Origin: Blastocystis hominis
Taxonomy: Eukaryota; Sar; Bigyra; Opalinata; Blastocystidae
Reading direction: 5' to 3'
Assembly (NCBI RefSeq): GCF_000151665.1
Contig: NW_013171823.1
Location: forward strand, 186,001-250,000
DNA: 64,000 nt
Below are positions 38,989 through 59,554 of this stretch, piece by piece (positions within the stretch are counted from its first letter, which is position 1; every line of letters begins with the position of its first letter). The notes under the pieces are model-generated. The model worked only from the letters and a program-made list of their open reading frames with translations. It was not told the DNA's origin and ran no database searches. The translations under genes and the position numbers were made by a program.

Positions 38989-39007
38989 CTGTTGTTTATG
39001 CCAAGCT

Positions 39008-39015
39008 TGTTTGTT
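39008..39015 (+). terminator. TGTTTGTT 3'-end motif of Ca2+-ATPase gene
   Basis: A perfect octamer 19 nt beyond the TAA; a looser TGTTGTTT lies 3 nt after the stop T. Confidence 0.7.
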
Positions 39016-39070
39016 TGAGACCTGTTGTTGTTATGTGTCGGAGTGGGTAATGTGTCAAACATTGTTTTGG

Positions 39071-41902
39071 ATGAAATCGTTATCTCTCTTGTTTCCTAAT
39101 TTGGACCTGAATCAATACGTTGTGAGCGATTCTAGGATCACTTTGCTTGAGTCACAAGATCGCAAGGAAGTCTTTCACTTCTTCGCACCTCATCAAAATG
39201 AAGTCCTCACTGTGGTCTACGAGAAGGGGACAGAAAATGGGAAGGCTGTTCTGGCTATTAACTCGCTCTATCAGATAAGGTGGAAAGTTGTCGACGGAAA
39301 GCCGGAAGGTGAGTATGAAGTGCTTAAGTTTTGTGTTTGTCGCTGTATCGGCTTCATAAATGAAGATGGTTCTTTTGACAGACAATGTTATATAGAATGC
39401 AGTTCCAAATCAACGATGGCTGTTCACTGTGATCCGACTACGGGTAATATCATATATCGAGGAGGAATGGGAAGAACACGTTTTGAACGTGAGGGCTTTG
39501 GTGCTGTGTATGATGGTGTGAGTGGGAATCCTTTGTATTTTGGCATCTTTTATCATAACAGATTGTATCGCATCTATCAGAAGTTCATCAATGGCGAGTT
39601 TATGGTTGAATATGCATACGAAGATGACAATACGCTGTTACATTCAAGTCAAGAAGGGATTGCTCGCTATATAGAGTCTCATCCCGCTCAGCCAGAGGGA
39701 ACGATTGTATATCGTGGTGGATTCAGACCTCAGCCGTGCTTGTTCTTCATGCGAAGTGGGGAAGGGTGTGAGATTCGCAACGGTGTGACACGCTATGGAA
39801 TTTGGAGAGGAGATAGATGTATTGAGCAGTGGAGTACCAATATGGAGAATGTGGTGTTTGATTGTTTAAAGGGATATGTGGCGAGATCCGCAAAAGACGA
39901 GACTCCAAGAGTGAAAGATGAAACGGATGTGGTTCGTGGAATAGATGATGGACCTATACAACTTCAAAAAGTACCACCCTATGCTGAAAAATTAATTAAG
40001 AAAGCTGATACAATGTTAGACGAAGTAGAATCTCCGTCTCCTTCAAACACGATTCATCCTGGTCCTAATTCTGATGTCAAATCGAAGCCGGAATCGACTC
40101 GTAGTGCAAATCCTAAGCCAGCACCTACTTCGAATAACGTTCCTAAGATTGTTTCCTCTTTTATTCCTGGTTCTTCTCACTTTACTCCAAGTGCTTCTTC
40201 ATCTTCTTTGGCTCCTGCTCCCACGAGTGCTCCCACGAGTGCTCCCACGAGTGCTCCCATGAGTGTTTCTGCTTCCATGAGTGCTCCCACGAGTGTTTCT
40301 GCTTCCATGAGTGCTCCTACGCCTACGCCTACGCCTATGCCTATGCCTATGCCTATGCCTATGCCTACACCTACTCCCACTCCCACTCCCACTCCCACTC
40401 CTAAACCTGCCCCCATAAGTGCCCCTACACCTGCTACCATTGTAAAACCCTCGACTCCTCCTCCTCCTCCTCCTCCTTTCTCGAATTCTGTACCTTTTGG
40501 ATCCATAAATCATCAGTTTGTACCTTCAAACTCGGCTTCTTCGATTCTTCCTCCAAAACCAAATACCAACAGTACCTTTTTCCCCTTCACTACAAAAACG
40601 GAAGTTGTCACACCTGAAGAGATGAATCAACCTCCCCAAAGCGCAAATACTGTCATGAAGAAATCGCATGAGCAAGTTTCACCATCACCATTTGTAAATG
40701 GATCAACGGTGCTTTCGGAATCATCTCTTAATAGTTATTTCTCGAATTCGAATCAACAAAACGTTTCTCCTAATGCTTCGGTTGATCCCTTCATTCCGAA
40801 TAGTCGTTCGAGTGGAGGTCAGTCATTGAGTAAAAGCAATAGCCAAAGTTCGATTAGATCATTCGAGAGTGTGGACAAAAGTCAATCCAAGGCAGCGATA
40901 AAACCTTTTATGAATGGTGAGAACCCTATGGCTAGTCCGTTCATTCCAGGGTCCTCTCATACATCGCCTTTTGGATCTTTCATTCCCTCTCTACGAAATA
41001 AACAATCTTCTTCTCCAATGAACGAACAAACGCAGACCCCAGTGAATGAGTCTACAGACGAGAAAGACGTTGTCATTTCGAGTTTCAGAGGATTTCAACA
41101 AATTCGCAACATGATCGTTTCTCTTACAGTGACTGGAAACTGCTGTAATGAACCGGAATGCAATCGCTTTGATTTATCAATGTGTGCGAATTTGAAAACC
41201 ATTCGGATTGAAGACAATTGCTTCAGGTATGTGACGGAGGTGAGTCTAAAGAAAATGGAATGTTTGGAAGAATTGTCTATTGGAATGAATTGCTTCCAAG
41301 GCATTCAAAACGGAATTGCGTCGAAACAATTTTGCTTGGAGGAAAATGATTCTCTTCTGACGCTTAAGATTGGAGCCAACTCTTTCGTCGATTACGATGA
41401 GTTCATTCTAAGAGGTAGTTGATACATGCATTCATTGAGACAAAGATATGGAGGAACTTTCTCAAATCGAGTTAGGTGAGAATTGCTTTCAATCGATTCG
41501 TAATGTCGTTTTGGAGAGTAGTGGTGCATTCCTGTGTGTGACTGTAGATCTCAGCTCGCTTTCTTCAATCAGTTTGAATAAAAACACTCTGTTAGGAGAT
41601 GAAACGAACAAAATTGCTAATCAAAATCAGGTTAGATACGCGAATCAACTTTGGTTTAAGAGTTGTTGAAAGTCATGACAAGTAAAATGTAGACTTGCAA
41701 TCGTTGGAACATCTTTGTAACCTCTCAGGTCCCTCACTTGTGTATTTTGGACGGATCGTTTGCCGAAACGTCACCAAATTAACCGAGAACGGGATCCAGC
41801 TCGGCGATTATGGCAGCTTCAAGTACATTCAAGATACAGATTTCAAGAATGCGAATGCTCTCAAGTCTTTCATTTTGCATCGCACTCAGCAGCATTCGAA
41901 TT
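39071..41902 (+). CDS. MORN-LRR family protein C with Pro/Thr/Met repeat linker
   Basis: The third paralogue of the family. MORN-like units ([26 protein letters not shown]) lie at about 39440-39850. A low-complexity linker follows with [20 protein letters not shown] and polyproline runs (40210-40480), then FIPGSSH repeats. C-terminal LRRs ([33 protein letters not shown]) continue into exons opening DMEEL, NLSSL and DLQSL after phase-1 introns. In-frame T 41902, four bases and TGTTTTCT predict a poly(A)-completed stop after ..QQHSN; otherwise the frame continues to about 41965 across the end of TRM10. The start at 39071 is the first good ATG; an earlier mini-exon is possible. Confidence 0.7.
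40210..40480 (+). repeat. Coding low-complexity repeats in MORN-LRR C
   Basis: Tandem GCTCCCACGAGT, CCTATG/CCTACG, ACTCCC and CCTCCT units encode PTSA, PM, PT and polyproline runs. Confidence 0.85.
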
Positions 41903-41906
41903 GTCT

Positions 41907-41921
41907 TGTTTTCTACAAACA
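41907..41921. terminator. Shared bidirectional 3'-end element, MORN-LRR C / TRM10
   Basis: TGTTTTCTACAAACA. The left half reads TGTTTTCT on plus, 4 nt after T 41902. The right half reads TGTTTGTA on minus, 4 nt after the minus-strand T at 41926. Both Ts are first codon positions of their genes. Confidence 0.7.
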
Positions 41922-41925
41922 CACA

Positions 41926-42921
41926 AGGAAGAATCGATTTTTCGAACAGGAACGCTCTCTTGAATGACCTGCTTCCAATCGGCCGATGTATTGAACCGTA
42001 CCAGCAATTCGATCACTACGAATGAACCCTTCTTTCGCTCTCGAATACCGTTGTTCACTGTCAAAACGCGTGACCCATGGAACTTTACGAGCTCCAACGG
42101 AAGCTTCGCACATCGAAATCCGAGTCGTTTGGCCTTTTCGAGAGTTAGGAATTTGTAACGATTGCGATCTACAATGCCCCCGATGATGTAAATCTCGTCT
42201 TTCTTTAAATCTTCCAAGGTTTCATCGCCATCAGCACTCAAGTAAACTATTTTGTCATGAGGATAGTGGAATCCGTCTTCCTGTTCCACCACTTTATCAA
42301 TATCAGACTCAAATCGCTCGGCCTATGAGTCAGAAAGAAACAGCCAAACCCACTAGCCAACTATCAAACCCCTTAATTTTCTCCAGTTTTGTTTTAACCT
42401 CGTCCTTCACGCTAGTGAGGACCAGACGAAGAGGCTTTTCGGCACGACGAATACAACCGTAAGAGTACATTACCTGCTGAACAAGACTACTCACCTCATT
42501 GGGACGCATCAACTCTTGGAAGTCCAAATCTATCACAATACGAGGACTTGTTTTCAAATCCTCCAACCACTGTTCCTTTCTCTTTCGGTGCTCCTCCTTC
42601 AGCCTTGCACGCTCTTCTTGTGATAAATCATCTATGAAATAATGAACATTATTCGAAATGACCTTGGACAGGCTGTTTTACCTGATTCTTTGCCTTTTCC
42701 TTCTTTTGTTGCTTCTTGATCCGTTTCTTCTCCTCCCAGTGCTTTTTCAGCTTTTCAAACTTGAGACGCTTTTTTTGCTGACTTTTACTAAGCTGCTCCG
42801 ATTGCTCCTTCTCTGGATCATCCAAAACTTCGTTCGTCTTGTCGTTTTCTTGGGTAGGTGGGACATCACCTTCTATGTTGTCACTCCTACACGATGAGAC
42901 TACACTAGAGACTCTTTACAT
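41926..42921 (-). CDS. TRM10: tRNA (guanine-9-N1)-methyltransferase, TRM10
   Basis: The N-terminus is Lys/Glu-rich (KKRLKFEKLKKHWEEKKR). The SPOUT domain shows RIVIDLDFQELM, VQQVMYSYGCIRRA, LVLTSV, IVYLSADGDETL, IIGGIVDRNRYK, AKRLGFRCAKLPL, SRVLTVNN and ADWKQVIQESVPVRK, all in TRM10 order; it methylates G9 of tRNAs using SAM. A 33-nt intron splits the start codon itself: AT at 42921-42920, then G after the intron, giving MSDNIEGD. Unspliced RNA would read ATG TAA. The end is T 41926, four bases before TGTTTGTA, so the stop is predicted to come from poly(A) after ..KIDSS. It is divergent from mL54, with 95 bp between starts. Confidence 0.9.
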
Positions 42922-43016
42922 TCCAATAGACTCAAAAAGGACGTGCTTCACAAAACTTTGGTATTCCACAATTCTGGACTTCTCTGACTCACAAGCAATA
43001 TTCAAGGAACCGAAAC

Positions 43017-43520
43017 ATGATTCGAGTCTCGAAGTTTCTTTCGTCTTCTGCCGCACTCCTCTGCCGATCGAATGCTTCTGTAACGAGAACAACTTCTTTG
43101 CTGTTTCAAACCCCTGTTTCTTCGGTTTTTGTTCGTGGATTCGCTGGAGAAAAGAAGAAAGGAAAGAAGCAGGCAGCAGCACCTGCTCAGGAGACTGTAA
43201 AGAGCGATAGTTTGATTCCTATAAATATTTATGTTGGTATGCACTTCTTTGAAGTTCTGACTGAAAGATGGAAAGGATCCCGAAGTGTTACCCGATGATC
43301 AGTATCCCGAGTGGTTATGGCATATGCTTGTGATTTCAAGTGATAGTGGTGACGTATAGGACCCTAAAGTGACTCCTGATGAATGGGAAACGCGTAACTA
43401 TGAGGGAATCACCGAAAAAGATATGCAAGCGTACTGGAAGCGTTTTGTATTTATTGTAGGGTGATTCGTGTGCGAGCGGCAATTCGTATCAAGGAGTTCA
43501 ATATGTCCAAATCAAAGTAA
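43017..43520 (+). CDS. mL54: Mitochondrial ribosomal protein mL54
   Basis: The N-terminus MIRVSKFLSSSAALLCRS with basic, Ser-rich residues is a good mitochondrial presequence. The conserved mL54 core follows across 30-31 nt introns: DGKDPEVLPDDQYPEWLWHML, DPKVTPDEWETRNYEGIT, then an AYWK motif. The last exon encodes IRIKEFNMSKSK and ends in TAA at 43518; the final intron boundary (near 43450-43485) is ambiguous. It is a component of the large subunit of the organellar ribosome, which implies an organelle that still translates. Confidence 0.88.
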
Positions 43521-43575
43521 ACTGGCAAATGAGTGGTGAAAAGGCAAGGTTATTTAGTAGAAAATATGGTTGTGA

Positions 43576-43583
43576 TGTTTGTT
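43576..43583 (+). terminator. TGTTTGTT 3'-end motif of mL54 gene
   Basis: A perfect octamer 55 nt beyond the mL54 TAA. Confidence 0.65.
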
Positions 43584-43617
43584 TGAAAGGAGTGATTGAT
43601 TTTTTGGTGAGATATTG

Positions 43618-43620
43618 CAT

Positions 43621-43655
<35 letters not shown>

Positions 43656-43656
43656 A
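43618..43656. repeat. (TAC)n microsatellite
   Basis: About twelve tandem TAC/ACT units between mL54 and the tRNA gene. Confidence 0.9.
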
Positions 43657-43675
43657 AAAAAGAAAAAAGAAAATT

Positions 43676-43747
43676 GGAGGAGAGGGGCATCGATCCCCTT
43701 ACCTCTCGCATGCTAAGCGAGCGCTCTACCATCTGAGCTACACCCCC
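43676..43747 (-). tRNA. tRNA-Ala: tRNA-Ala (anticodon AGC)
   Basis: On the minus strand the sequence folds as a cloverleaf: acceptor GGGGGTG with CTCCTCC (one mismatch), D arm GCTC..GAGC, anticodon arm CTCGC-TTAGCAT-GCGAG with AGC anticodon, and T arm AGGGG-ATCGATG-CCCCT. There is no intron and CCA is not encoded. Box A (TAGCTCAGATGG) and a box B-like segment are visible. Confidence 0.92.
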
Positions 43748-43969
43748 TACAAACTGTTTCCTTTATGCTACCTACTTATAGAACTAATCACATTACACAT
43801 TCAATTCTAAAACCATCGCTCGGTATGAGTATCTGATGGATATAAAGTCCTATTCGTGCCTGCAATATAATGGTAAGATCGACTTTTGTAGAAATGGGGA
43901 AACTCGTAATAGATTTGGAGTATATTTTGTGTTTTTTGCTACAGTTGACTTCGATTTGTATTTTATCGA

Positions 43970-46343
43970 ATGGGACAAAACGCAAGCTCAGAAGAGAAGG
44001 TTGATACCCCAGGTGTCAGTGGGGGCAGCCCTAAACCACAAGTCAAGCATCGAAACCATGAGTTCTTCATTTCGAACGGAGACCTTGAAACAGTTGGAGA
44101 CCTGGATTCCGTTCTGCAGGCTATTAATGTTTCCCCAACTCCGGAGGGTACGTTTCTTTCCTTGTCTATTATCATTTAAGATGATAGCCCCTTCAGTCCA
44201 GAGGTGATTGAAGTGAGCGGAATTCAGTCCCAGCGAGAAGCAATAAAGAATGTCGTGAAGGCTCGTTCTAACCATTTCATTCGAAGACTTTCGGCAGCTT
44301 ACCCTGTACAAGAAGATGACATTTTTACCTATGTGCGTGTTTCAACGATGATGAAAGTAGTTGAGTACTGCGACACTGGAACTCAACTGACGTTAACCAT
44401 GGTGAACAAATACTTTAGTTCCCTTATTGCCACCACTCGAACGGAAGCGGACATCGTGTGCCAACCTGGCTGGGTCGACGCCATCAACCGCAGTCCCTTC
44501 CTGCGAACGATCGTGCTGCGTCGAGAGAGCGCTCCTGACGACATTCGTCGCTTCTGCCGCATTATAAAGAATGACGGTTTCCCCGAGCTCACCGATCTGA
44601 AACTTGTGTATGTGGGCGAGGAAAATCTCCACAGCATCCTCAACGCGTTTCAGCAAAAAATCTCCCGGTCGATCCGTCTGAACATTATTTCAAAGGATTT
44701 CACCGCGGGAGTGACCATCGCCGTCTACGATTTGACCCAGCGCGTCTGCTACTCGTTCGCCGAGGCCGCGCAGGAGAGTCTCTACTTCGTCCTGGGCCGT
44801 CTCCGCCTGATAACGGACGACGTGGAAGGCATCGAGCATTTCTTCAAAACCGTGGACTTCTCCTCGTTCTCGCGTCTGCAGGAAATCACGCTCTCGTCGT
44901 GCCCGCTGCAGAAGCGCGGGTTCGAGCTGTTCATTCGCTCGATGTGGCCGGAAGGCGCGTCCTCGAGCGACGTGCCGCCGGTGCGCGTGCTGCGCTTGGA
45001 CGAAGTGCAGCTTCACAACACGGCGATGCTGTCGATGGCGTCCGTGATGAACCGAGGACTCTTCGCCAACCTGGAGGAGCTGGATTTGTCGTCGAATAAG
45101 ATCTCGGAGAAGGGGATCCGCCTGCTGGCGGACGCTTTGTCGAACTTCGCGTGTCCCAACCTCAAGAAACTGCTGCTCACAGACAATTTCGTGTCGGTCG
45201 GGAACATGGTCTGCCTGTTCTCCGCGCTGAAGGACGGCTGCTGCCCTCTGCTGAGCGAGCTGGAGTTCGGACACACCGGCATCGGGCAGGAGGATCTGGA
45301 AGCGTTCGCGGAGTATCTGACGACGCCGTACGCGGAGAATCTCTCGCGTCTGAACCTGAGCAACAACCCGCAGGTGACGGCCGCGCTGCCGGGACTGTTC
45401 GAGGCGATGGAGAACGGGTCGAGCGAGAGCATGAAGACGCTTCTGATGGAGGGCGTGTCGCTGGCGCGCAAGGAGATCGAGGGACTCGCGCGATGGCTGC
45501 TCTGCGGGAAGGCTGCGAAGCTGCGCGCGCTGATTCTGCGGTGCAATCTGCTGGACGAGGGCGCGTTCCGCGTGCTGCTGGAGACGATGATCGATGCGCG
45601 CTGCCCGCGACTCAACGCGCTGGATTTCAGCTCGAATCTGATCGGAAGCTTCACGGAGGCGGACTGGCTGCCGCTGCTGTCGAAGGACGGCGAGGAAATC
45701 GTGTTCGAGCAGGTGGATTTCTCGTTCAACCCGCTCTCGGACAACGACATGCGGCTGCTGCTCATGTTCTTATCGCGCTTCTCGCATCTGGAGAAGACGC
45801 GTCGCATGGCGTTCGCGGGGAATCAAATCACCGCGGAGACGTTCAACTTCCTCTTCAAAGCGATCCCGGAAGACGTCAGCTCGCTCTCCTTCCTTTCAAT
45901 CGACTCCTGCTCGCTCCAAGGCGTCGGACCCTACTTCGCAGACTTCCTCGCGAGCCGCGCCGCCTCGCAGCTGACCTCTCTGTCGCTCCGCGATTGCGGA
46001 TTGACGAAGCGGGACGTGCTGCAGATTCTGGATGGGCTGGATCAGGGAGCCTGCGCCATGCTGAGCACGCTGCGGCTGGACGGAAACCCCGAGATCGATA
46101 ACCAGTTCGTACAGAGGATTCTGCAGAGTATCGGGGAGAAACAGTCGCTTCCGAGCTTGACGAGGCTGGAGGCCGGATACACGCAGATTAATGGGGAGGG
46201 AGTGGAGATGTTTTTGAAATTCTTTAAGGAGCACGCGACACGCTTGCAGTCGCTGGATCTGTCGAGTATTAATATTAGCTCGGAAGAGAAGGATCTCTAT
46301 AAGCAGCAGATGAAGGAGTTTTTCTCTGGTCATTGTAGTTTCT
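43970..46343 (+). CDS. LRR (ribonuclease-inhibitor-like) protein with N-myristoylation motif
   Basis: It begins MGQNASSEEK: Gly2 with Ser6 and a basic residue is a typical N-myristoylation signal, suggesting membrane attachment. A 33-nt intron follows residue 60 or so (PE|DDSPF). The main exon encodes a long array of RI-type LRRs (LEELDLSSNKISEKGI, LKKLLLTDNFVS, LSRLNLSNNPQVT, LSLRDCGLTKRD), about 700 residues. GC content rises sharply in 44750-46200. The C-terminus fits the poly(A)-stop rule: in-frame T 46343, four bases, TGTTTTCT, ending ..FFSGHCSF. Reading on would overlap the RAE1 start at 46377. Function unknown; a scaffold or signalling role is a guess. Confidence 0.8.
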
Positions 46344-46347
46344 ATTT

Positions 46348-46355
46348 TGTTTTCT
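46348..46355 (+). terminator. TGTTTTCT motif that sets the LRR-gene stop
   Basis: A variant of the octamer, 4 nt after in-frame T 46343 and 21 nt before the RAE1 ATG. Confidence 0.6.
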
Positions 46356-46376
46356 TAAATACATTTTCAAGGAAGA

Positions 46377-47737
46377 ATGAATAGACAGTTTAAGGATATT
46401 CCATCCTACCAGGAATCAGTAAGGTTGGCGAGGATTAAACATCTAGGCCGTTCCTGCGGATACAATTAGCTGCATTCATACTTCATGGAATAGTAGTCAC
46501 TTTGCTCTGACTTCTTGGAACGGAGAGGTGCTTTTCGCTGAATTGATGTTTGACACATAGGTGCGTTGTTACCAGGTGAATACGGCAAATGGAGGGATTC
46601 GTTCGCAAGGAGTTAGCTCGATATCTCTGGGAGTTCCGGCTACTTCCTGTTATTGGAACACGGTTTCGGCGTTTCTTATGCATCGAATGTAGAATAATTC
46701 ACAAGTTTTCGTTGGAAGTGGAGACGGAAAAGTTTTCCTTTGGAATTTGGAGTCTGGCTCTTCGAGTCCCCAGCAAATTGGTCAGGTATTCTATTTCGTA
46801 ATTTCTTTATCGTTTCCAGCACCAAGATGGAATCATTGCAATTTCAATCAACACAAAGACAAATCTGCTGACGGTCGGAAGTATTGATGGCGACGTTGGT
46901 GTATATGATATTCGTTCTCCCAACTCTGTTGTATGGCAAGTCCCTCTCGTTCTTTACACACTAGATTCATCTAAACGCCAAGCGCTCCTTAACAGCCTTG
47001 TGTAATGGGTACCGCATCCCCTCCTCTTTTCTATTCTTTTAGTGTGGACACCTCTCAATTCGCCTTCACAAACGGAAAAGACATCTTCATATACGATCTC
47101 TGCAACCCATCGCAAGCTTTTAAAGTGCATGTTCCGCCATCCTGCTCTCTAGACCTACTCCGTGGATGATAAAGATGCCTTTGCCACCTCGCTCGCCTTC
47201 TCGCCTACCAAGTATTTCGCGTATGGCATGATGAGCGGATTGGTGGTCGTGGAGTTTTTGTAGGCTCGGTGTTGCGAAGGTCACACGCAGAAATATCCCG
47301 TACAACGGTACAAAGAACGACACGCTTCGATTCCGCGTGGGGAAGCAGAATAATGTGCAGCATACCGTCTCGGGGTCAGGAAGGAGGAGTGTTTTGACGG
47401 CGTAGCATTTGCTTCCACAATCCGAGCGAGTATATTTTGACAGCGTCGGGAAACGGCTCGCTGGTGTTGTGGGACTGCGTGAGTCGCAATCGCGTGCAGG
47501 ACTTCGAAAAGGCGTAGAAATAGAGGAGAGGGATCGAGACAAGACAATCCAATGTGACGCATGGAATCACGGCGTGCTGCTGCTCGTATGATGGATCGCT
47601 GCTGGTGTATGCGAAGGGGTATGGATGGGATTTGGTAGAGCAGAGAAGGGGGCGTGAAGGGTAGGGAGCGCCGTCGACTGTTCCCTCATCGTATCCGATC
47701 AATCAAAACGTGGAGTTGTTCTGCAAACGATTAAATT
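46377..47737 (+). CDS. RAE1: mRNA export factor RAE1/GLE2, WD40 protein
   Basis: Exons joined by introns of 28-33 nt give MNRQFKDIPSYQES, AVPADTISCIHTSW..FALTSWNGE and VRCYQVNTANGG, matching the RAE1 block with GSWDNQVRCYEV. Later blades read VGSGDGKVFLWN, VGSIDGDVGVYDIRSP, FTNGKDIFIYDL, LAFSPTKYFAYGMMSGLVVVEF, then LTASGNGSLVLWD, ITACCCSYDGSLLVYAKGYGWDL and NQNVELFCKRLN. BUB3 is the close alternative; VRCYQV and the long C-terminus favour RAE1. Its role is mRNA export at the pore and spindle assembly. No genomic stop lies at the end: T 47737, four bases, TGTTTGTT predicts a poly(A)-made UAA after ..KRLN. Confidence 0.82.
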
Positions 47738-47741
47738 GGAG

Positions 47742-47757
47742 TGTTTGTTAGAAAAAA
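47742..47757. terminator. Shared 3'-end element, RAE1 / phosphoserine phosphatase
   Basis: TGTTTGTTAGAAAAAA. The plus half is a perfect octamer 4 nt after T 47737. The minus half reads TTTTTTCT, 4 nt after the minus T at 47762. The minus half is weak. Confidence 0.5.
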
Positions 47758-47761
47758 GGAG

Positions 47762-48512
47762 AAAGGAGGAGGAGGAGGGATAATAGATCGTGGAAGGATG
47801 CGATCACTAAGTCGCCCTGGCTTGAAACTGAAGGACGATCTTTTACTCCTGTAAAACAGATAAAGGCGTCCACTACGTCTTTTGTTTCCAGATCCGTTGC
47901 TCCGTCACCGATCATTACGCTCTCTTTCTCTCCAATATGGGCGAAAACCTCTTCAATTTCAAGGCATTTGCCCCTGGGATTGTTTATAAGCCGAGAACGA
48001 TCAAAGCCACTGTATAAACCATTCGAAAAGTAGATTTCATTACACAAAACATGATCGTGTGGAATACCTAGCTTGTCGCTCACTGGAAATACAAGCTGAT
48101 TATGACACTGAATACAATCATACATGTGATATGCCTCCGCTCACAAGATACACCAATTTCCGGTTGTTCTGCAAATAGGAAATAAACTCTTTCACGCCAG
48201 ATGTGAGGGTCGGATTCCAGTTTCTTAAAAATGAAGTCATCTGCTCGATTGTGGGATGCAGCAAGTTCATTCGCTTTTCAAAACCTTCTACATAGGATAT
48301 TTCGCCCGCCATTGCCCTTGGTTTGAAACGATATCCATTCTATACTGGTTAGTTATGGAGCAGACCTCCTTATACTTGCCCAAATACCGTGCGAACTCAT
48401 CGAGCCCTTCTTCATGTATAAGGGTACTGTCTACATCCAAAAAGAAGCATTGCGCATTTCGCAAAACTTGGATGGCCTTTTGTGGGTGAAGTCCTTTCAA
48501 ATGTGTTATCAT
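47762..48512 (-). CDS. SerB: Phosphoserine phosphatase
   Basis: HAD-superfamily motifs are in the expected order: FLDVDSTLIHEEGLDEFAR (catalytic Asp pair), EISYVEGFEKRMNLLHP, LVYLVSGGI (motif II Ser), LCNEIYFSNGLYSGFD, GKCLEIEEV (motif III Lys) and VMIGDGATDLET (motif IV Asp pair), with FICFTGVKDRPSV at the end. It removes the phosphate in the last step of serine synthesis. Three or so introns of about 30 nt occur. The end is either T 47762 (poly(A)-completed) or the TAA at 47748, which would add SPFF. The start is ATG 48512, divergent from the SelT-like gene. Confidence 0.93.
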
Positions 48513-48628
48513 GCTCTATATTTGGAGTGCTGAGGCTATCTCGAACCACTGATCTTTCTCCCTTTTAAAAACTATAGTCAAAAACAATAGAACAGTTCGC
48601 ATTTCCATTCATTTTGTTATTATTTCGA

Positions 48629-49239: not shown

Positions 49240-49241
49240 TT

Positions 49242-49256
49242 TGTTTCTTCCAAACA
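49242..49256. terminator. Shared bidirectional 3'-end element, SelT-like / NSP1
   Basis: TGTTTCTTCCAAACA. Plus half TGTTTCTT is 4 nt after T 49237. Minus half TGTTTGGA is 4 nt after the minus T at 49261. Confidence 0.65.
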
Positions 49257-49258
49257 CG

Positions 49259-52200
49259 TTATTCCAATCCTCTCAATTCTGACAGTCGCTTGTTTATCTC
49301 TGTAACGTTCCGCTCGATCCACCGCAGCGAGTTGTAGTGGGCATCCACGATCGTGGAGAGATTGTCCTGACGACCTGTCGCTCCGTGTTCTCCCAGCCGA
49401 TCCACGCGATCCTCGATCTCCTGCACGCCCTTCTCCACCTTCTTCACATCGGAGTAGAGCTGCGAAATCTGGGTATGGACAGACTGTGACTTGTCGGTAG
49501 ACTGATGCGACGCATGATCCGAGTCCAGCTCCTTCTCCATTTTCTACGAATCAGCACAGAATAAAAAGACGCACAGTCAGAGAGTCTTCAAGTTGGTCTT
49601 GGTGGCGCTTGATGTTCATGAGAACTTCTTTGTATGTGCTCTGACGATGCTATTTGTAAGGAACGCAAGCTGGAATGACCTGGATGCTGGAAATGCTGGC
49701 TTCGAGCTTTTGCAAAAGTGTGAAGTAGTTCTGGATCTTCAGATCGGTATCTCGGACTTGTCTGCACATCGATACAAACTGGCCTGCCTGTTTCTCTAAA
49801 GAAGTGTTCCAGCCTTCTAAGACCTCGCGCAATGTGCTCGTTTTCATGTCTACTAATAATATCTATTGCATCCAAATGTACCATCGGAACTGAAATCAGG
49901 AGTAGGGGAAACAGATTTGGGCGTTTCTTCAGACTTTGGAGCTTCTCCTGGCTTCGCAGCATCCGCAGGCTTCGCTCCGAAACTAAAAGCGGGCTTCGAG
50001 GCATCTCCAGGTTTGGCAGCATCACCCGCACCTCCGAAACTAAAAGCAGGCTTTGAGGCATCGGCAGGCTTCGAGGCATCAGCAGGCTTTGAAGCGTCAG
50101 CCGCACCTCCGAAACTAAATGTGGACTTAGGGGCATCAGCAGGCTTCGCAGCATCAGCAGGCTTCGCTCCGAAACTGAAAGCGGGCTTCGCAGCATCAGC
50201 AGGTTTGGCAGCATCAGCAGGCTTTGCTCCAAAACTGAAAGCGGGCTTCGAGGCATCTCCAGGTTTGGCAGTGTCGGCAGGCTTCGCTCCGAAACTAAAA
50301 GCAGGCTTGGCACCATCAGCAGGCTTTGAAGCGTCAGCCGCACCTCCAAAACTAAATGTGGACTTAGGGGCGTCAGCAGGCTTTGAAGCATCAGTCGCAC
50401 CTCCGAAACTAAAAGCGGGCTTCGAGGCATCGCCTGATTTTGCAGCATCTCCAGGCTTTGCTCCAAAACTAAAGGCAGGTTTGGCAGCATCGCCTGGTTT
50501 TGTAGCATCTCCAGGCTTCGCTCCGAAACTGAAAGCGGGCTTGGCACCATCAGCAGGCTTTGAAGCATCAGTCGCACCTCCAAAACTAAAAGCAGGCTTT
50601 GAGGCATCAGCAGGCTTTGAAGCATCAGCAGGCTTCGCTCCGAAACTAAATGTGGACTTAGGGGCGTCAGCAGGCTTTGAAGCATCAGCAGGCTTCGCTC
50701 CGAAACTGAAAGCGGGCTTCGAGGCATCTCCAGGTTTGGCAGTGTCGGCAGGCTTTGCTCCGAAACTAAAGGCAGGTTTGGCAGCATCGCCTGGTTTTGA
50801 AGCATCAGCCGCACCTCCAAAACTAAAAGCGGGCTTGGCACCATCAGCAGGCTTTGAAGCGTCAGCCGCACCTCCGAAACTAAAAGCAGGCTTTGGAGCG
50901 TCAGCAGGCTTTGCAGCATCGGTAGGTTTCGCGGGATCAGCAGGCTTTGCTCCGAAACTAAAAGCGGGCTTTGTAGCATCAGCAGGCTTTGAAGCATCGC
51001 CAGGTTTGGCAGGGTCTACAGGCTTCGCTCCGAAACTAAAAGCAGGTTTGGCAGCGTCGGCAGGTTTCGTAGCATCAGCAGGCTTTGAAGCATCACTTAT
51101 ACCTCCAAAACCAAAAGCAGGCTTCGCTGTATCTCCAGGCTTTGAAGCGTCAGCAGGCTTTGAAGCATCTCCAGGCTTCGTTCCAAAACTAAAAGCAGGC
51201 TTCGCAGCATCGGCAGGTTTCGCGGGATCAGCAGGCTTTGCTCCGAAACTAAAAGCGGGCTTCGAGGCATCAGCGGGCTTTGAAGCATCCGTATTAGGAG
51301 TAGTTTGCGTAGTACTATTATTGCTGGTATTTGTACCAACTGGATTGTTAACACTGTTCATTTGACCAAAGCTAAATCCGCCTCCAGTATTAGTATTGTT
51401 TTGACCAAAACCACTTCCAGAGTTCGTATTGGTATTAGGTTGGTTCGCACCAGCAGCTTGACTATTATTGTTTTGACCAAAGCTAAATCCGCCTCCAGTA
51501 TTAGTATTGTTTTGACCAAAACCACCTCCAGTATTAGTATTGTTTTGACCAAAACCAAAGCCACCTCCAGTATTAGTATTGTTTTGACCAAAGCCGCCTC
51601 CGTTATTGGCATTGTTTTGACCAAAGCCGCCTCCAGTATTAGTATTGTTTTGACCAAATCCACCTCCATTATTATTACTATTGTTTTGACCAAAACCAAA
51701 GCCGCCTCCATTATTGGTGTTGTTTTGACCAAAGCCGCCTCCGTTATTGGTGTTGTTTTGGCCAAAGCCACCTCCATTATTGGCATTGTTTTGACCAAAG
51801 CCAAAGCCACCTCCATTGTTATTATTGTTCTGGCCAAATCCAAAGCCACCTCCGTTATTATTACTATTGTTTTGACCAAATCCAAAGCCACCTCCAGTAT
51901 TAGTGTTGTTTTGACCAAATCCACCTCCATTGTTGTTTTGACCAAAGCCGCCTCCATTATTGTTCTGGCCAAATCCAAAACCACCTCCGTTATTGGTGTT
52001 GTTTTGACCAAAGCCGCCTCCATTGTTGTTTTGACCAAAGCCACCTCCATTATTGTTCTGGCCAAATCCAAAGCCACCTCCGTTGTTATTATTGTTCTGG
52101 CCAAATCCAAATCCGCCTCCATTGTTATTACTATTGTATTGACCAAGGTTCGTTTACTGTTAGAGCTACTTGTAGATGAAAGGNNNNNNNNNNNNNNNNN

Positions 52201-52937
52201 NNNNNNNNNNNNNNNNNNNNNNNNNNNNNNNNNNNNNNNNNNNNNNNNNNNNNNNNNNNNNNNNGTGGGACATACCCGGGTCTGGAATCGTGAGGGTTAT
52301 TATTGTTCTGGCCAAAACCAAAGCCACCTCCGTTGTTATTGTTGTTTTGACCAAAACCGCCTCCATTGTTATTATTATTGTTTTGTCCAAAACCAAATCC
52401 ACCTCCGTTATTGTTGTTGTTCTGGCCAAAGCCAAATCCGCCTCCATTATTGTTATTTTGACCAAATCCAAAGCCACCTCCATTGTTATTATTTTGACCA
52501 AAACCAAAACCGCCTCCATTATTGTTATTTTGGCCAAAACCGCCTCCATTGTTGTTTTGGCCAAATCCACCTCCAGTATTGTTTTTCTGACCAAATCCAA
52601 AGCCACCTCCATTATTATTATTTTGACCAAAACCACCTGCGTTGTTTCCATTCATACCGAAGCCACCTCCCCTATTAAATCCCATTCCACCGTTATTTTG
52701 ACCAAAGCCACCATTATTCTGGCCAAAACCACCATTATTCTGGCCAAAACCACCATTGTTTTGACCAAAGCCACCATTGTTGTTCTGTCCGAATCCACCA
52801 TTGTTGTTCTGTCCGAATCCACCATTATTTTGTCCAAAGTTGTTTCCGCCTCCAAATAAGCTATTGCCGTTATTTCCAGCCCCGGAAAAGTTAGATCCTC
52901 CAAAGCCAGTTCTGGAATTTCCAAAAGAACCCAACAT
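49259..52937 (-). CDS. NSP1: FG nucleoporin NSP1/NUP62
   Basis: The N-terminal part (52937-51370) is built of GFGFGQNNNN and GGFGQNN repeats. The central part (51300-49950) has regular KPAFSFGAKPADA units, strikingly like the FSFG spacers of yeast Nsp1. The C-terminal coiled coil, joined by 30-32 nt introns, reads DMKTSTLREVLEGWNTSLE, QVRDTDLKIQNYF, HRQSTYKEVLMNIKRHQ and KKVEKGVQEIEDRVDRLGE, as in the NUP62 domain that pairs with NUP54/NUP58. It forms the central permeability barrier of the pore. The stop is TAA at 49259. An 81-base N gap (52184-52264) lies in the FG region; bases next to it do not fit the repeat, so this part of the frame is unreliable. Confidence 0.88.
49950..51300 (-). repeat. 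KPAFSFGAKPADA tandem coding repeats
   Basis: More than 30 near-identical units of about 36-48 bp with scattered silent changes. The opposite strand stays open for 499 codons because of the repeat and is not a gene. Confidence 0.9.
52184..52264. other. Assembly gap (N run) inside NSP1
   Basis: 81 Ns. About 40-45 bp on the left and 30 bp on the right break the FGQNN repeat. Confidence 0.99.
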
Positions 52938-53138
52938 GGTTTATTACTTGTAAAGTGACAACAAGAATAATGATCGGGGTTTGATTCTTTGTTGTTAATA
53001 TAGATTTTGAAAAAAGATCAACGTGTAGATCCCTATTTTGTCCTTTTGCTTTTTATCTCAATTCCTGAACAAAGAATCGTAGGCAGCTTAATGAACTCTA
53101 TCATCAAGCTTTTAGGCATTATTTAGATTAGACTTTGC

Positions 53139-54214
53139 ATGGATTTTAAGTTATATACAGCCGCTCAAGGGGTAGCTCATGGATTCGACAAGTTTGTGTG
53201 CATTAGCTGTCTCTTTCTGTTTGGGGATATCTGCTTGATAGCGGGATTTATAATGCTTTTTTCTCCTGATACCAGGCAGTATAATATTCAAAAGTATTGT
53301 GTTTTATTGTCTTTTTACTAGATATAATGACGCTGTAGTAACATGGAATAATAGCCATTTTAGCGAATTTAGCGGATCGAGCTTTTTCTGTAGAATACAA
53401 AACAATAATCATTCAATTCTCCCCGTATCATCTTCCTATGGGACCTATTATCCATACCGTGATACTTGCGATCTAAAAGGAGATCAGTCATGTCTTTCGT
53501 ATCCAATTCTATACCATTCCGCTGTGATTCCTGTTTCAAGCTCAGAATTCCATAGTATCACTCTTTTTAGCCAGAAGAATAATTCGGCTGTTTCATCATT
53601 TTTCGATATAACAATTCCGAATTCTCAGGAATTTATAGTGTCTAGAAACAATATTGGCTGTTCAGAAGGCAGTCAGTAGGATATTTGTGTCGGAATTGAA
53701 CATAGAGCGACTTGTAGCTCTCTGTGCTCTGCAAAAGGAGGCACGTGGAACCAAACCGATCACTCTTGTCATATTGTTGGCTATCTTAGTAATCTGTGTG
53801 TTCGGATCAAGCGAAACGAAGCGAATTGGGTAGTAGATGATCCTCCGTCAATTCTTTCGCTTCCAATTGATTTTTAGTTTATTTGAACTCAACTCAGATA
53901 AGACGGATACCGGTTGTTGGTATGATTTTGGTGCCAATATCCAGTCCTTGGCCACTTCTCAAAAGTGGTTAACATCTGTGTATGTTTCTGCCCCCACACA
54001 GAATCTCACGGTCGAGATTCGCCATGCTGCCGATCCGGAGGTGCGAGTGAGTGCAATCACTTATGGCTGCAGCTCTCAGAACCAAGAAAGCACGCAATGT
54101 CTTGGACTTCCAAAGTCTAGTTCCTATGATACCATAACAATTCTTTTGTGTGTTGGATTTCTATCTGTGTGTTGTGAAATTGGAGTAAGCGATCTGCTGG
54201 AAATTGAATCATAG
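53139..54214 (+). CDS. Two-TM Cys-rich membrane protein, unknown
   Basis: The first exon encodes a cytosolic start and a TM segment (FVCISCLFLFGDICLIAGFIML). After a 45-nt intron comes a long presumed luminal or extracellular domain (ILPVSSSYGTYYPYRDTCD, CSSLCSAKGGTWNQTDHSC, CWYDFG) with paired cysteines and N-glycosylation sites. A second TM (TITILLCVGFLSVCC) lies before the TAG at 54212. An intron of about 42 nt near 53640 and another near 53830-53880 are needed; the second is unresolved. The layout suggests a receptor-like or assembly protein; I cannot name the family. It is divergent from NSP1 (about 200 bp). Confidence 0.55.
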
Positions 54215-54241
54215 AGTTATTTCTTATACAAAAAGTCCACC

Positions 54242-54707
54242 ATGTCTTCTTCTTCTTCTTCTTCTTCTTCTTCTTCTTCTTCTTCTTCTTCTTCTTCTTC
54301 TTCTTCTTCCTGCATTACTGAGCCCCCTGTCCAAGCATCGTCTTGTTTTGGCTTCTTGTAGGGGTTGATCCGTAGCAACAGAGCCAGCTCAGTCTGCCCA
54401 TGCGCTTCAACTCGCGGTGAATTTTGCAACAGAAGTGCCAGCGGAGGCTCCGATCGAAATCCCATTGGACTCTCCCATGAAAAAAACGGAGAATCTTCCG
54501 ATCCTGGAACAGAGGGAAGCCGTTCAGGAGAATGATGCTCTGTTTTACGATCGATCTCCTTGCGCAGAAGCTTTGGTGCACATTTCATACACTGAAGCAC
54601 AGAATGACTTGGATATGGAGGGAAATTGCTCATTGCAGCATGCAGAAAGTAATTATTCGAGCCACTATGGAGGAAATGCGTATGAAGGATACGAAGAGGG
54701 AATATAG
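54242..54707 (+). CDS. Possible small acidic protein, strand uncertain
   Basis: A plus-strand frame (visible from about 54380 as EPAQSAHALQLAVNFATEVP) runs to TAG 54705 and is followed by TGTTTGTT at 54729-54736, the expected gene-end signal. An upstream ATG at 54242 would give a poly-Ser start from the TTC repeat, but I could not find an intron that joins it in frame. The minus strand is also open for 185 codons (54774-54217), ending in poly-Glu. The plus-strand motif makes plus the better guess. Confidence 0.35.
54244..54309. repeat. (TTC)n microsatellite
   Basis: About 22 tandem TTC/CTT units, poly-Glu if read on the minus strand. Confidence 0.95.
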
Positions 54708-54728
54708 AAAAGTCCTTTTCTATCTGCT

Positions 54729-54736
54729 TGTTTGTT
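54729..54736 (+). terminator. TGTTTGTT 3'-end motif before SLX1
   Basis: A perfect plus-strand octamer 22 nt beyond a TAG and 30 nt before the SLX1 ATG. Confidence 0.5.
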
Positions 54737-54765
54737 TCACTAAATGAAGTGGTTCGAGTGGAGGG

Positions 54766-55532
54766 ATGCCTCACTACTGCTATTTGCTACGTTCGTTAAA
54801 CGAGAAGTATAGAAACTCAACATATATCGGATATACTGTTAATCCTAAAAGAAGGATTAGGCAGCATAATCGAGAGGTTTTTAAGGCAGAGGGTTGGATA
54901 ATAAATAGATTAAGAATGGAGCTTTCAAGACTCATCGAGCCATGCCTTGGGAAATGATTTGTGTCGTCTGCGGATTTCCAGACAAGAGGGAAGGCCTGCG
55001 ATTTGAATGGGCGTGTCGACTTTTATAAGATTTTCGATTTTCTAGGGCAACATCCTGTTCATAGCAAAATCTGTCGTGAATTTATATCTGCAACGCTAGA
55101 GAGACGTCGAAAGTACATCTCGAAGCTGGAGATTGCTCTACGGATGGTTTCGGTGTATTTCTTCTATGACCTAGTTATCTCATTCCCCTTGGAGTGAAAT
55201 GGATCTTTCCATGATAATAACAAACTATACAGTATTCAATGAAGCCCAACTGCTGTATAGTAGTTTCCTTTCGTCCTTACAAGTGTTAAATCAGCCTCTG
55301 CAGTACTTATATGAGGACGATAAGATGGAGGACGATGAGATGGAGGACGATGACACGGAGGACGATGAAATGGAGGATAATGAGATGGAGGACGATGACA
55401 CGGAGGACGTAGAGCAAATCACAGAACAGGTGAAAGACTTCTCCAAATCTACAGCGATTCAAAACTCTAACTTTAATCCATATTTGGATCTGTACATTCC
55501 GAACAACTACTGCCCGTCATTTACTGTAAAAT
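54766..55532 (+). CDS. SLX1: Structure-specific endonuclease SLX1 (GIY-YIG), RING-less
   Basis: The GIY-YIG domain shows YLLRSLNEKYRNSTYIGYTV, NPKRRIRQHNREV, then across a 29-nt intron FKTHRAMPWEMICVVCGFP and GLRFEWAWQHP with introns of 28-31 nt. These are SLX1 signatures, including the catalytic Arg and the FEWAWQ helix. SLX1 with SLX4 cuts branched DNA such as Holliday junctions. The family's C-terminal RING/PHD-type zinc finger is missing; instead there is an acidic repeat (MEDDEMEDDDTED, about 55330-55410) and a tail ending ..SFTVK at T 55532, 4 nt before TGTTTATT. A genomic TGA occurs three codons later. Confidence 0.85.
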
Positions 55533-55536
55533 GGAA

Positions 55537-55544
55537 TGTTTATT
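55537..55544 (+). terminator. TGTTTATT motif at SLX1 end
   Basis: A one-mismatch octamer 4 nt after in-frame T 55532. Confidence 0.5.
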
Positions 55545-55562
55545 GAACAAAGAGGGGTGCAA

Positions 55563-56392
55563 TTATGTGCGAATCGAAAAAATAAGATCCACAAATTTAT
55601 CATAAGACATATTGACTCTTCCAGATTCATCTCTATCTAGCTCCATATATCGAATTTGAGAGAGCTGTAACTCAGTTACTAGCTACACGATAGTGCGACC
55701 ACACAAGACCATTACCTTAATGAACTCATCCATTGATATTGATCCAGAACGATCTGTATCGGAGGAAAAGAATACAGTTTGATATGTAGTAGGAGATAAG
55801 TTGATACTAGGTGTTACCTACCTCGCTGAATTATACCCTATCATAATAAGAGCCTGTTGGAGCTCGCCGAAATCAATAGATCCGCTTTTGTCTGTGTCAA
55901 AGTAATCAAAAGCTTCCTTCCACCTCCAAACTTCATCGATTAAAGACTTGAACTCTTCAAATTCTAGCTGACCACTAGTGTCAAATAGGGACTCCATACA
56001 TACTTCCGATTTCTATCATGCTTAGCAAGCAGAATATTTACAGTAGGAAGAGAAAACTGGAGGCCTCCAACACTCAAAGCACTTTGTAATTCTTTACAAT
56101 CAAGTTTTCCGCTACATCTTATGAACTCCCAGCAGACACACTTTTTATTTAAATCGACCATGTTGTATATAAAATATGCACTGCGTTCAGCAGTATCCGA
56201 TTCTTCTGACTTGGGAGGTTCACCTACAATGGGAATCCACAACGGATAATACTCTCCCCAAGTCGGCAATGACAGTGAGGACACTATAATTAAAAGCAGA
56301 GGAAAACTTCCTACCAAATCTATAATAGTATCATTAACCGAAGTAACCATGCCTCCACAGTTGCTACAGGTTACCATCCATGGTTTGCTCAT
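55563..56392 (-). CDS. Penta-EF-hand-like calcium-binding protein
   Basis: After an N-terminal segment with a CSNCGG motif come EF-hand units: YNMVDLNKK, SGKLDCKELQSAL, LLAKHDRNRS..LEFEEF, YFDTDKSGSIDFGELQQAL, SSDTDRSGSISMDEF and MELDRDESGRVNMSYDKF. Alternating helices and loops with Asp-x-Asp-x-Ser-Gly calcium ligands fit the PEF family (sorcin, peflin, calpain small subunit). Introns are about 30-50 nt and some junctions (55800-55830) are approximate. The stop is TAA at 55563. Probably a Ca2+ sensor that moves to membranes. Confidence 0.75.
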
Positions 56393-56657
56393 TCAAAGAG
56401 GAAAGAACCAAGATCACCAAAGAGAAAATAAAAAAGTACTTTCTGTACGAGATAAGAATAGTCTTTCACCTAATCAAGGGATTTAGAGAGAATTATTATT
56501 GAGAGAGTAGAAAATATGCATGACGATGAAGCACTGAAAAAGGGATATCAACAAATAGGGATAAAAGGAAGTGATTAGAAAGATAGAAAAAGTACAAAAA
56601 ACAGGGAAATAACGGCTACTCAATCGAACTGGGTTGTATTCTTCATATTATATTTTA

Positions 56658-57388
56658 ATGGTTACTGTTACTATCACTGTGATTGAGGCAAGGAAACTGC
56701 GTGATGTCCAGATTCTTGGCATCCAGGATCCGTTTGTGATCATCTCTACGGATAAAGAGTCCCGTCAAACGAAAACCGACAATAATGGGGGGACTCGCCC
56801 ATGTTTGGATTTTGAATTTTATTGAATTTAGACTGGAATGACGTAAAGACTCTCAATTGTCGTAATTATGAGGGTGTGCTGGTTTTTAAAATGTGATTGT
56901 TGTTTTCGATAGTTATTCTATAGTATGAACAAGAACATTATTAAAGATAGCGAGATTGATAGTGGTACATTATCTATGCCCAAGATTGCTTCCTATGGTG
57001 GGTACATCGATACTTGGGTACCTCTTGCGAGTGGAGGTGAACTCCATGTCATTGTGAAACTAGATAATTGTAAGAATGTGGTTGGTGTGTTATATTTTAG
57101 TTGCGGGAGTTAACAAGGCCGGATATGCTCCTCAACCTGGATATGCTCCTCAGCCCGGATATGCTCCTCAACCCGGATATGTTCCTCAGCCTGGCTACCC
57201 GCCACAGCCTGGATATCCTCCTCAGCCTGGATATCCGCCACAGCCTGGCTACCCGCCACAACCTGGTTATCCTCCACAACCTGGATATCCTCCTCAGCCT
57301 GGCTACCCGCCACAACCTGGCTACCCTCCTCAGCCTGGATATCCTCCTCAGCCTGGATATCCTCCTCAGCCTGGTTATCCTCCTATGT
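56658..57388 (+). CDS. C2-domain protein with PQPGY repeat tail
   Basis: A compact C2 domain: [28 protein letters not shown] (the DPF calcium-loop motif), [42 protein letters not shown]. Introns of 29-31 nt occur. It is followed by 15 or more tandem PQPGY[AP]P units from 57118. C2 plus Pro/Gly/Tyr-rich tails are known in plant SRC2-like proteins, which bind membranes with Ca2+. The predicted end is after ..GYPPM at T 57388, five bases before TGTTTTCT; reading through adds about 11 residues to TAG 57424. Confidence 0.75.
57118..57384 (+). repeat. PQPGYPP coding repeat
   Basis: 18-bp units (CCTCAGCCTGGATATCCT type) repeated 15 or so times with silent variation. Confidence 0.92.
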
Positions 57389-57393
57389 ATCTT

Positions 57394-57407
57394 TGTTTTC
57401 TCAAACA
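57394..57407. terminator. Shared bidirectional 3'-end element, C2 gene / G3P dehydrogenase
   Basis: TGTTTTCTCAAACA. Plus half TGTTTTCT is 5 nt after T 57388. Minus half TGTTTGAG is 4 nt after the minus T at 57412. Confidence 0.65.
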
Positions 57408-57411
57408 CAGT

Positions 57412-59554
57412 AGTTTATGTTCATAGAATCGATAACGACATTTACATCATACTTCTTGAGCGAGCACTTGTTAATTTGGCAGACGGTGTCTTCCAATTCC
57501 TACAAAAATACTTTCACATTCCTATCTACTACCTCATAGCAGCGGTTTCTGTCCCAGCCCAATTCATTCTTCATCAAAACAGTACATTTCGGTAAACACT
57601 GCATAGTCAGCCACGTATCTGTCACTCCGATACGTAACCTTCTCATAATCACATCACTCAGTCGCACAGCCATCTCCTGTTGCACGCAATACGGAACTTC
57701 AGCTTCTAGATAGGGTAAGCTTTCGTGAAGTCGGGCTGTGCCTCGTTTTTTCGCCAGTTCAGCGACCTCAAAAGCGCGATAGCCATAGAAATGACTCAGA
57801 TGCTCCGCGATATCCGTAGGCATCTGATAGAACTCTTCCAAATCACGTTGCACATCGATCTGCTGCTCGAAATAGCGTGCGCGTTTCGAACCGTGCTCCT
57901 GCGGACCTACCAACTCGTTCGCGCCGACATACTTGAAGTTTTTGGTCCGACACTTTCCGATCTGAAGGTGAATGGGGAATCGAGAAACGGACTGGGAGGG
58001 ACGTGGAACGCTCGATTGAATCGCAGAGATCTTCGGCCATGTTCCGAACGGTGGTCCACTTTCCTCCTGCAATGGTGATGAAACCATCTCCTTTCTGCCA
58101 GATTTCATGGGTTCGCGAGATTCGCTTCGTATCCACAGTTCCTTTCTTTGATCGAAAGCACCACCCTGATTTTACGTTCATTTCGCGAACGAGCGGCCGA
58201 ATTCCACTCCAAACGGCTAAAATATCGTCCTTCGTGATTGGCTTATGCATGAACTTGTTGATTTCGGCGAAGATGAGTTCGATGTCTTCGTCGGTTACAT
58301 CGGGTTGGTCTTCTATGGTACAGGGAGTGTCGGTAGTTCCGACAAGCGTGCTAGATTAAAGTGACAATAGCAAACCAACTAGTTCTGCCATGGAAGCATA
58401 AACATAACGCGATTATCCGAAGTCGTGGTGATAATGCCTGCCTGTCGAGGGCAAAGCGATCCTTGGAGCAGGAGATGAACTCCTTTTGATGGTACAATAC
58501 AGTCCACATGGCGCACAGGACTGGGAGAAAGCGCTTCGTACATCTTGATAATCGAATCGGCAAAGGGTCCTGTTGCGTTCACTGTCACTTTTCCACGAAT
58601 ATCAATCTCGTTTCCGGTTAGAGTATCTCGCACATGCACGCCTGTCACAATTTCGTGAGGCGATTGTGTGTGATTGGGACAGGGACTGTGCAACAAACTC
58701 ATTACCTCCATGTAATTCACAGAGACAGCGCCATTCTCGACAGCTGTTCGGTTGATAATGTTGTTAAGTCGGCTGTCATTCGACTGACCGTCGTAGTACC
58801 TACACGGTAGAGAAGGAGCGCAAAGATTACACCAATCCCCCTTTCGCCCAATCAAAATTCATTCTAGGAAACACATACTCCATTTCTTTCCACTTTATCG
58901 CATGACTAGCGAATGAGTAGGACCGATGGGAGTGTACCTCCTGGGAAGTCCGCCTCTCAAGGCAATGATATCGTACATGAGCAGACCCATTCGAACATAT
59001 TGCATTTGAAACCAGGAGTTTACGGGGATGACAGTGGCTATGGGACGGGTTAGATATGGAGCATTTTGCAACATAAACTTCCTTTCATGCAAAGCTTCCT
59101 ATTTGTGATTTGGATTCAATAGGGCTACAAAAACTAACATAAATTCCTTCCAGTTTAGATGTTTTACGGCATCTTCAAGATACCGAACTCCTCCATGGAG
59201 GAGATTCGTAGAACGGCTTGACGTTCCAGAGGAGAAATCGTATCTCTCAACAAGCGCAACCTTGTATCCTCGGAGAGTAGCGTCTAAAGCTATCATGGAT
59301 CCAGTACTTCCTCCCCCAACAACGATGACGTCAAATTCATTTTTGCACAAATTATTAATCAACTGCAATAAAGGAATCCTATCTCACAGGTTGAGGATAT
59401 ACTCTCTCGTGGTGGAGGCTTACTGAATCGATACGTTTTGTTCCCCACCTAATAATCAGAATGTTTAAACACAGTAAACAATAATATTTTCTGCAAGGGT
59501 AGAGAACGCACGCGTGGCAATAGGTAAAAAAGCTTTTCGGATCACAGATAACAT
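57412..59554 (-). CDS. GPD2: FAD-dependent glycerol-3-phosphate dehydrogenase, mitochondrial type
   Basis: The likely start [17 protein letters not shown] is an amphipathic, basic mitochondrial presequence, followed by one or two introns whose phases I could not fully settle. The catalytic body has [19 protein letters not shown] (FAD dinucleotide fold), [92 protein letters not shown] and [14 protein letters not shown], then the C-terminal GPD2/GlpD helical domain ([25 protein letters not shown]). It oxidises glycerol-3-phosphate to DHAP and passes electrons to quinone. There is no EF-hand extension as in animal GPD2. The end at T 57412 precedes TGTTTGAG by 4 nt, predicting ..SMNIN then UAA. 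Confidence 0.9.

Follow-up and report, generated by a model that had tools for sequence, protein, structure and literature searches.

Convergent gene ends in the window

The window is a stretch of 64,000 nucleotides from contig NW_013171823.1 of Blastocystis hominis (positions 186,001 to 250,000, forward strand), in which neighbouring genes converge on a short inverted repeat, TGTTT followed after a few bases by AAACA, that appears to carry one polyadenylation signal on each strand. The sequence UGUUUGUU has been described as the downstream element of Blastocystis poly(A) signals, its UGUUU core directing cleavage 4 nt upstream as mapped with expressed sequence tags (PMC4159000), and poly(A) addition can complete stop codons from a terminal T or TA (PMC4159000; PMC5608401). 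The same motif and offset have been reported for B. hominis, with U predominating where poly(A) is attached and an average 3′ untranslated region (UTR) of 31 bp (PMC4360255). In a legumain 3′ UTR, alteration of the motif together with two upstream Ts lowered reporter output 324-fold (PMC6395660). Fifteen copies of TGTTTGTT are found in the window against 2.9 expected, one of its proteins finds its nearest named relatives in Blastocystis isolates (JDR and BT1 appear among the relatives), and the tandem minus-strand genes carry the motif alone, with the same T five nucleotides before the core (position −5).

Five convergent junctions were found in the window, their predicted ends all 23-26 nt apart. 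At the first, a plus-strand gene of the LRR/MORN type has its predicted last templated base, a T, at 41902, 4 nt before the TGTTT at 41907; TGT would become UAA by poly(A) addition, and frame 0 is open for 72 codons upstream. The opposing minus-strand gene is TRM10-like (Pfam tRNA_m1G_MT, PF01746, E 2.8e-14), with a predicted last templated T at 41926 where TTG would become UAA in a frame open for 132 codons. The fused signal between them (41907-41921) has the form TGTTT-N5-AAACA, TGTTTTCTACAAACA, with a plus half TGTTTTCT matching TGTTTGTT at 6/8 positions and a minus half TGTTTGTA at 7/8. At the second junction a RAE1-like (WD40) gene on the plus strand is predicted to end at 47737, where TGG would become UAA after 24 open codons in frame 0, and the minus-strand gene (SPP, HAD-like) probably ends at 47762. 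Here the fused signal (47742-47757) joins a perfect plus copy of TGTTTGTT at 47742 (8/8) to a weak minus half, TTTTTTCT (5/8). One exon of the RAE1-like gene matches WD40 with 20.5 bits and SPP gives a HAD-like match of 23 bits, each under the curated cut-off of 27.

At the third junction the predicted last base of a plus-strand SelT-like gene, 49237, is the T of an encoded TGA, UGA becoming UAA, and that of a minus-strand NSP1-like nucleoporin gene, 49261, is the T of an encoded TAA in a frame open for 94 codons. The fused signal at 49242-49256 is again TGTTT-N5-AAACA, TGTTTCTTCCAAACA, with halves TGTTTCTT (plus, 7/8) and TGTTTGGA (minus, 6/8). A Pfam search of the SelT-like exons returned no match, and the coiled-coil Pfam matches of the last NSP1-like exon were all sub-threshold. 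Further minus-strand open reading frames (ORFs) resembling FG-repeat nucleoporins lie at 49853-52940 and include a short masked (N) stretch.

The fourth junction in map order was found in addition to those of an initial annotation of this DNA. It opposes a plus-strand GIY-YIG (SLX1-like) gene (PF01541, 31.7 bits against a cut-off of 22.6), predicted to end at T 55532 with TGG becoming UAA and frame 0 open for 119 codons, to a minus-strand EF-hand gene (PF00036, 43.5 bits) with a predicted last templated base at 55558, 5 nt past an encoded TAA (55565-55563). These ends are 26 nt apart around TGTTTATTGAACAAAGA, and the halves of the fused signal (55537-55553), TGTTTATT on the plus and TCTTTGTT on the minus strand, each match at 7/8. 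At the fifth, a plus-strand C2-domain gene (PF00168, 25.2 bits against a cut-off of 22) is predicted to end at 57389, the A of a TA, so that TAT becomes UAA. It faces a minus-strand gene for an FAD-dependent oxidoreductase of the glycerol-3-phosphate dehydrogenase type (three exons match DAO, PF01266, and one of these passes the cut-off), with a predicted last T at 57412 and TAC becoming UAA. The signal at 57394-57407 is TGTTT-N4-AAACA, TGTTTTCTCAAACA, with halves TGTTTTCT (plus, 6/8) and TGTTTGAG (minus, 6/8). A candidate sixth junction near 54215 is ambiguous. The ORF named MORN-LRR (38939-41419) gave no Pfam match; since Pfam matches are absent or sub-threshold, the names MORN-LRR, RAE1, SPP, NSP1 and SelT derive from the initial annotation and from reading the sequence.

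The initial annotation had placed terminal Ts at 41902/41926, 49237/49261 and 57388/57412, each pair 24 nt apart, around a degenerate inverted repeat TGTTT-N4/5-AAACA, and had noted for RAE1/SPP (47737/47762) a spacing of 25 nt in which the second half is weak. All these positions and sequences are correct, and the repeat exceeds chance both in the window and in the genome. For the third pair 24 nt is right as a distance between stop-completing Ts but not between cleavage sites: under the published 4-nt rule A57389, following T57388, is the last base, giving 23 nt from 57389 to 57412. All six halves of these three named pairs lie within two bases of TGTTTGTT (6/8 or 7/8), as the published core rule requires, and the RAE1/SPP minus half (5/8) falls outside that limit. 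Within the window, TGTTT-N5-AAACA is found twice (shuffled mean 0.13; reached by 2/100 shuffles) and the N4 form once (shuffled mean 0.10; reached by 8/100).

Abundance and geometry of the inverted repeat

The arrangement is strongly over-represented in the genome as a whole. Counts were made on its own assembly (18.7 Mb, 40 contigs) with the same pattern reversed as control, k being the length of the spacer between TGTTT and AAACA. With k=5 there are 350 sites against 49 reversed, which makes N5 the commonest of the spacers counted from N4 to N8; the others give 129 against 37 (k=4), 206 against 47 (k=6), 168 against 58 (k=7) and 272 against 62 (k=8). Pooled over k=0-12 the figures are 1953 and 691, and over k=20-32 they are 1120 and 863, or about 86 per spacer for the 13 spacers. 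Correction for background leaves an estimated 695-880 strict-core sites with k=4-8, a number of sites and not of annotated gene pairs. A consensus-like list was also compiled, in which the consensus G and C stand beside the cores and a T on at least one side; it is limited to the first 100 places out of 768, which all fall on contig C1. Removal of three TGTT arrays left 55 distinct elements, with k of 4-9 in 38 and 10-31 in 17. The k=11 count is inflated by a repeat family of near-identical 21-mers, TGTTTTGNATCAGTGNAAACA, on the same contig (103816, 162449, 200224, 550401, 551351 and 604708).

The sides of the repeat often carry a T at the predicted cleavage position. The 350 N5 sites have 700 sides, and on 408 of these a T stands exactly 5 nt before the core (207 and 201 by strand; control 16). 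The pattern anchored on both sides, T-N4-TGTTT-N5-AAACA-N4-A, which spans 24 nt (4+15+4+1), occurs 122 times against 4 in the control. If the two sides were independent, 119 N5 sites with a T on both would be expected; because the observed 122 fits this, each T can be assigned to its own cleavage site. The T is likewise present at −5 in 44 of the 72 one-sided TGTTTGTT sites. With a constant offset for each half, the cleavage sites come to lie 19+k nt apart, or 23 nt for N4 and 24 nt for N5.

Reading frames agree with the position of the T. A set of 20 elements was made up of 14 loci (L002-L015), the site at C1:97027 and the five junctions of the window; for 47742 the minus side was placed one base off, with k taken as 5, and scored as not T. 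On 16 of the 24 T-anchored sides of this set, the frame that would turn the T into a stop is also the one open for longest (p 0.0009). At one-sided sites the same holds for 23/44 (p 0.007). Fused ends are not measurably richer in created stops than single ones: an encoded stop lies at the T in 3/24 as against 12/44 (p 0.23), and the proportions in which frame 0 is longest, 16/24 and 23/44, do not differ significantly (p 0.31). Created stops are thus frequent at both kinds of end and are not peculiar to the fused form. Judged by reading frame, four of the six ends of the named pairs have no stop codon in the DNA at the cleavage position (TGT, TTG, TAT and TAC) and two have one. The idea that the element itself defines both stop codons is not supported, as the SelT-like/NSP1 pair encodes TGA on the plus and TAA on the minus strand. 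What the element sets is cleavage, and a stop is completed only where an in-frame T, TA or TG lies there.

The 74 one-sided TGTTTGTT sites taken from the window, C1:1-200000 and the loci are A-rich from +10 to +15 of the motif start (42-58% A). The A-rich stretch may belong to the signal and have escaped notice, or may represent degenerate copies on the opposite strand. As a downstream extension of the motif it does not explain the preferred spacers, since it gives k=5 and 8 no advantage over the others.

Probable back-to-back signals and competing explanations

The favoured explanation, held with a probability of roughly 85%, is that the fused element consists of two known poly(A) signals on opposite strands, one for each convergent gene. 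Two copies of UGUUUGUU would face each other with their last three bases overlapping or abutting. RNA polymerase would transcribe each gene past the element, and the UGUUU core in the RNA would direct cleavage 4 nt upstream, where poly(A) would be added and an in-frame T converted to UAA. Convergent genes would be packed near the shortest spacing that lets both signals work, at about k=5, and packing is presumably the cause of the close gene ends. The cleaved mRNAs of a pair would not overlap, which bears out the earlier suggestion that sense transcripts share almost nothing: the two predicted mRNAs have no overlap. Motif function and the 4-nt offset are taken from the literature; the arrangement and its over-representation are read directly from the DNA.

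Several points weigh against this explanation. At each window junction the poly(A) sites are predicted ones, and that both halves are used there is likewise a deduction from sequence. A codon-usage strand test, which separates frames poorly (in-frame median 3.5 against an other-frame 95th percentile of 4.4), gave convergent coding on both sides at one of 17 N5 sites, on one side at ten and on neither at six. This weak test also missed one of the two genes in all three founding pairs of the window and is therefore given little weight, but by its result the 14 C1 loci are only presumed to lie between convergent genes. In C1:1-200000, nine of ten exact-core sites with k=4-8 are without two-sided coding support; these nine may be background. 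A home-made gene-finding hidden Markov model missed many genes and was not used for any conclusion. The spacer counts are a further difficulty: k=5 outnumbers k=6 and k=7 despite one unavoidable clash between the two 8-base consensuses, and k=8 exceeds k=6 and k=7, both free of clashes, where simple packing predicts a smooth fall.

The last difficulty recurs in the two-sided anchored counts, which cover 24, 25 and 27 nt. A genome-wide peak at 24 nt, expected from the initial annotation, is present (122 sites), but it does not stand alone: doubly anchored sites number 64 at 25 nt, where the control gives 3, and 120 at 27 nt, where it gives 9. Stop-completing Ts thus lie 24 nt apart, and likewise 27 nt apart, about two times as often as 25 nt apart (chi-square p 2e-5), an excess for which packing alone does not account. 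It could be explained if convergent genes were phase-locked, the distances being multiples of three and the antisense frames standing in fixed register, either through an ancestry of overlapping coding ends or through a stop-rich antisense phase that limits translation of read-through mRNAs. The unanchored spacers behave like the anchored ones (350, 206, 168 and 272 for k=5-8), no clear bias of this kind is visible in the N20-32 sample (44/30/26 against 38.5/30.8/30.8), and antisense stops are densest where codon position 1 lies opposite position 1 (4.0% against 3.6% and 2.2%). That difference in stop density is small, however; the 55-element list is weakly periodic (14, 9, 4 and 7 for k=5-8), and 7 of 50 listed k=8 sites can also be read as k=4. 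A phase lock is on balance unlikely. Two other sources of the pattern were rejected: duplicated sequence for k=8, as 48 of the 50 listed sites differ from one another, and coding-sequence periodicity for 24/27, which is not clearly seen at k=20-32.

It is considerably less probable that the repeat is a single palindromic DNA site, at which one symmetric factor stops the polymerase and sets both cleavages with a fixed 24-nt geometry. The strong enrichment of the inverted repeat and the predominance of N5 among N4-N8 are what such a site would produce. Yet the same motif is found alone with the same T at −5 (44/72), its two sides behave as independent of each other (122 observed, 119 expected), and spacers of 4, 6, 7 and 8 also exceed their reversed controls, an outcome not expected of a rigid single site. 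The initial annotation had seen in the repeat one new short element, which is not supported: the signal in each half, like its offset, is already known from the literature (PMC4159000), and it also occurs by itself.

An RNA hairpin, formed in each transcript by pairing of TGTTT with AAACA and acting as the signal or as a terminator, can be set aside as scarcely credible: the two cores are complementary by construction and a stem forms in the folded 35-nt stretch at 49242 (−7.7 kcal/mol), but there is no covarying or extended stem, spacer ends being complementary in 22 of 50 N5 sites (20.6 expected) and the first outer pair in 1 of 18 (2.8 expected), and the cores do not pair with each other in the lowest-energy fold at 41907, AAACA is missing from one-sided sites, and pairing would be expected to mask UGUUU from an RNA-binding protein. 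Two back-to-back signals remain the favoured explanation, and the initial interpretation as a whole is partly supported.

Known systems and the packing of gene ends

The single-gene signal of Blastocystis (PMC4159000, PMC5608401) shares with the fused form its core, the 4-nt offset and the completion of stops from T or TA. In their accessible text these papers treat gene ends singly, whereas here two motifs overlap on opposite strands. The latter paper counts 95 overlapping pairs of gene models in subtype ST4, most of which would be separated by the motifs found there. Bidirectional sites between convergent yeast genes (PMC3875857) are similar in that a short common region works in both orientations with symmetric features. 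The yeast signals are described in terms of Hrp1 sites and nucleotide composition, and their offsets peak at about 90 bp, whereas the present element is built from copies of the downstream element at a fixed 4-nt offset, with predicted ends 23-27 nt apart and sometimes no 3′ UTR. In Arabidopsis, sense and antisense transcripts of convergent pairs are polyadenylated in one region, and the authors remark that shared signals should be palindromic (PMC3032780). The accessible text of that study describes overlapping transcripts and no consensus element; here the element is explicit, and one short region holds signals for both strands.

Searches of the open-licence PubMed Central literature turned up no account of poly(A) signals that overlap or act in both directions in Blastocystis. 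The claim that such an element had not been described appears to hold for the fixed overlapping form, of which these searches gave no description, but not for bidirectional sites in general: cleavage signals common to convergent genes are already known from yeast (PMC3875857) and have been discussed for Arabidopsis.

The TRM10-like protein offers a lead on how gene models treat these ends. A search found 67 relatives, and one in viral contigs returned none. Three of eight examined reach the C-terminus, and two of these (P0009 and P0002) run on as ...FVC.... This is the translation of TTTGTTTGY, so the models appear to read through the signal, about one codon beyond the end predicted here, and may be too long. 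In P0009 the residues that follow are T-N-M; as judged from the protein alone, they would fit TGTTTGTACAAACATG.

Should both halves be in use, something like one in two convergent junctions of this genome would end both genes in about 24 bp. This estimate sets the 695-880 sites against some 1,505 junctions derived from 6,020 ST7 genes (PMC5608401), and assumes subtype ST7 and random gene orientation. A phase lock, if real, would point to an origin in overlapping coding ends or to selection on the translation of read-through mRNAs. If both halves are indeed at work, the packing of gene ends in this genome would be extreme, offering a simple gene-finder rule that places both 3′ ends, which older models are known to overrun, and a defined test bed for two polymerases converging with almost no spacer between them.

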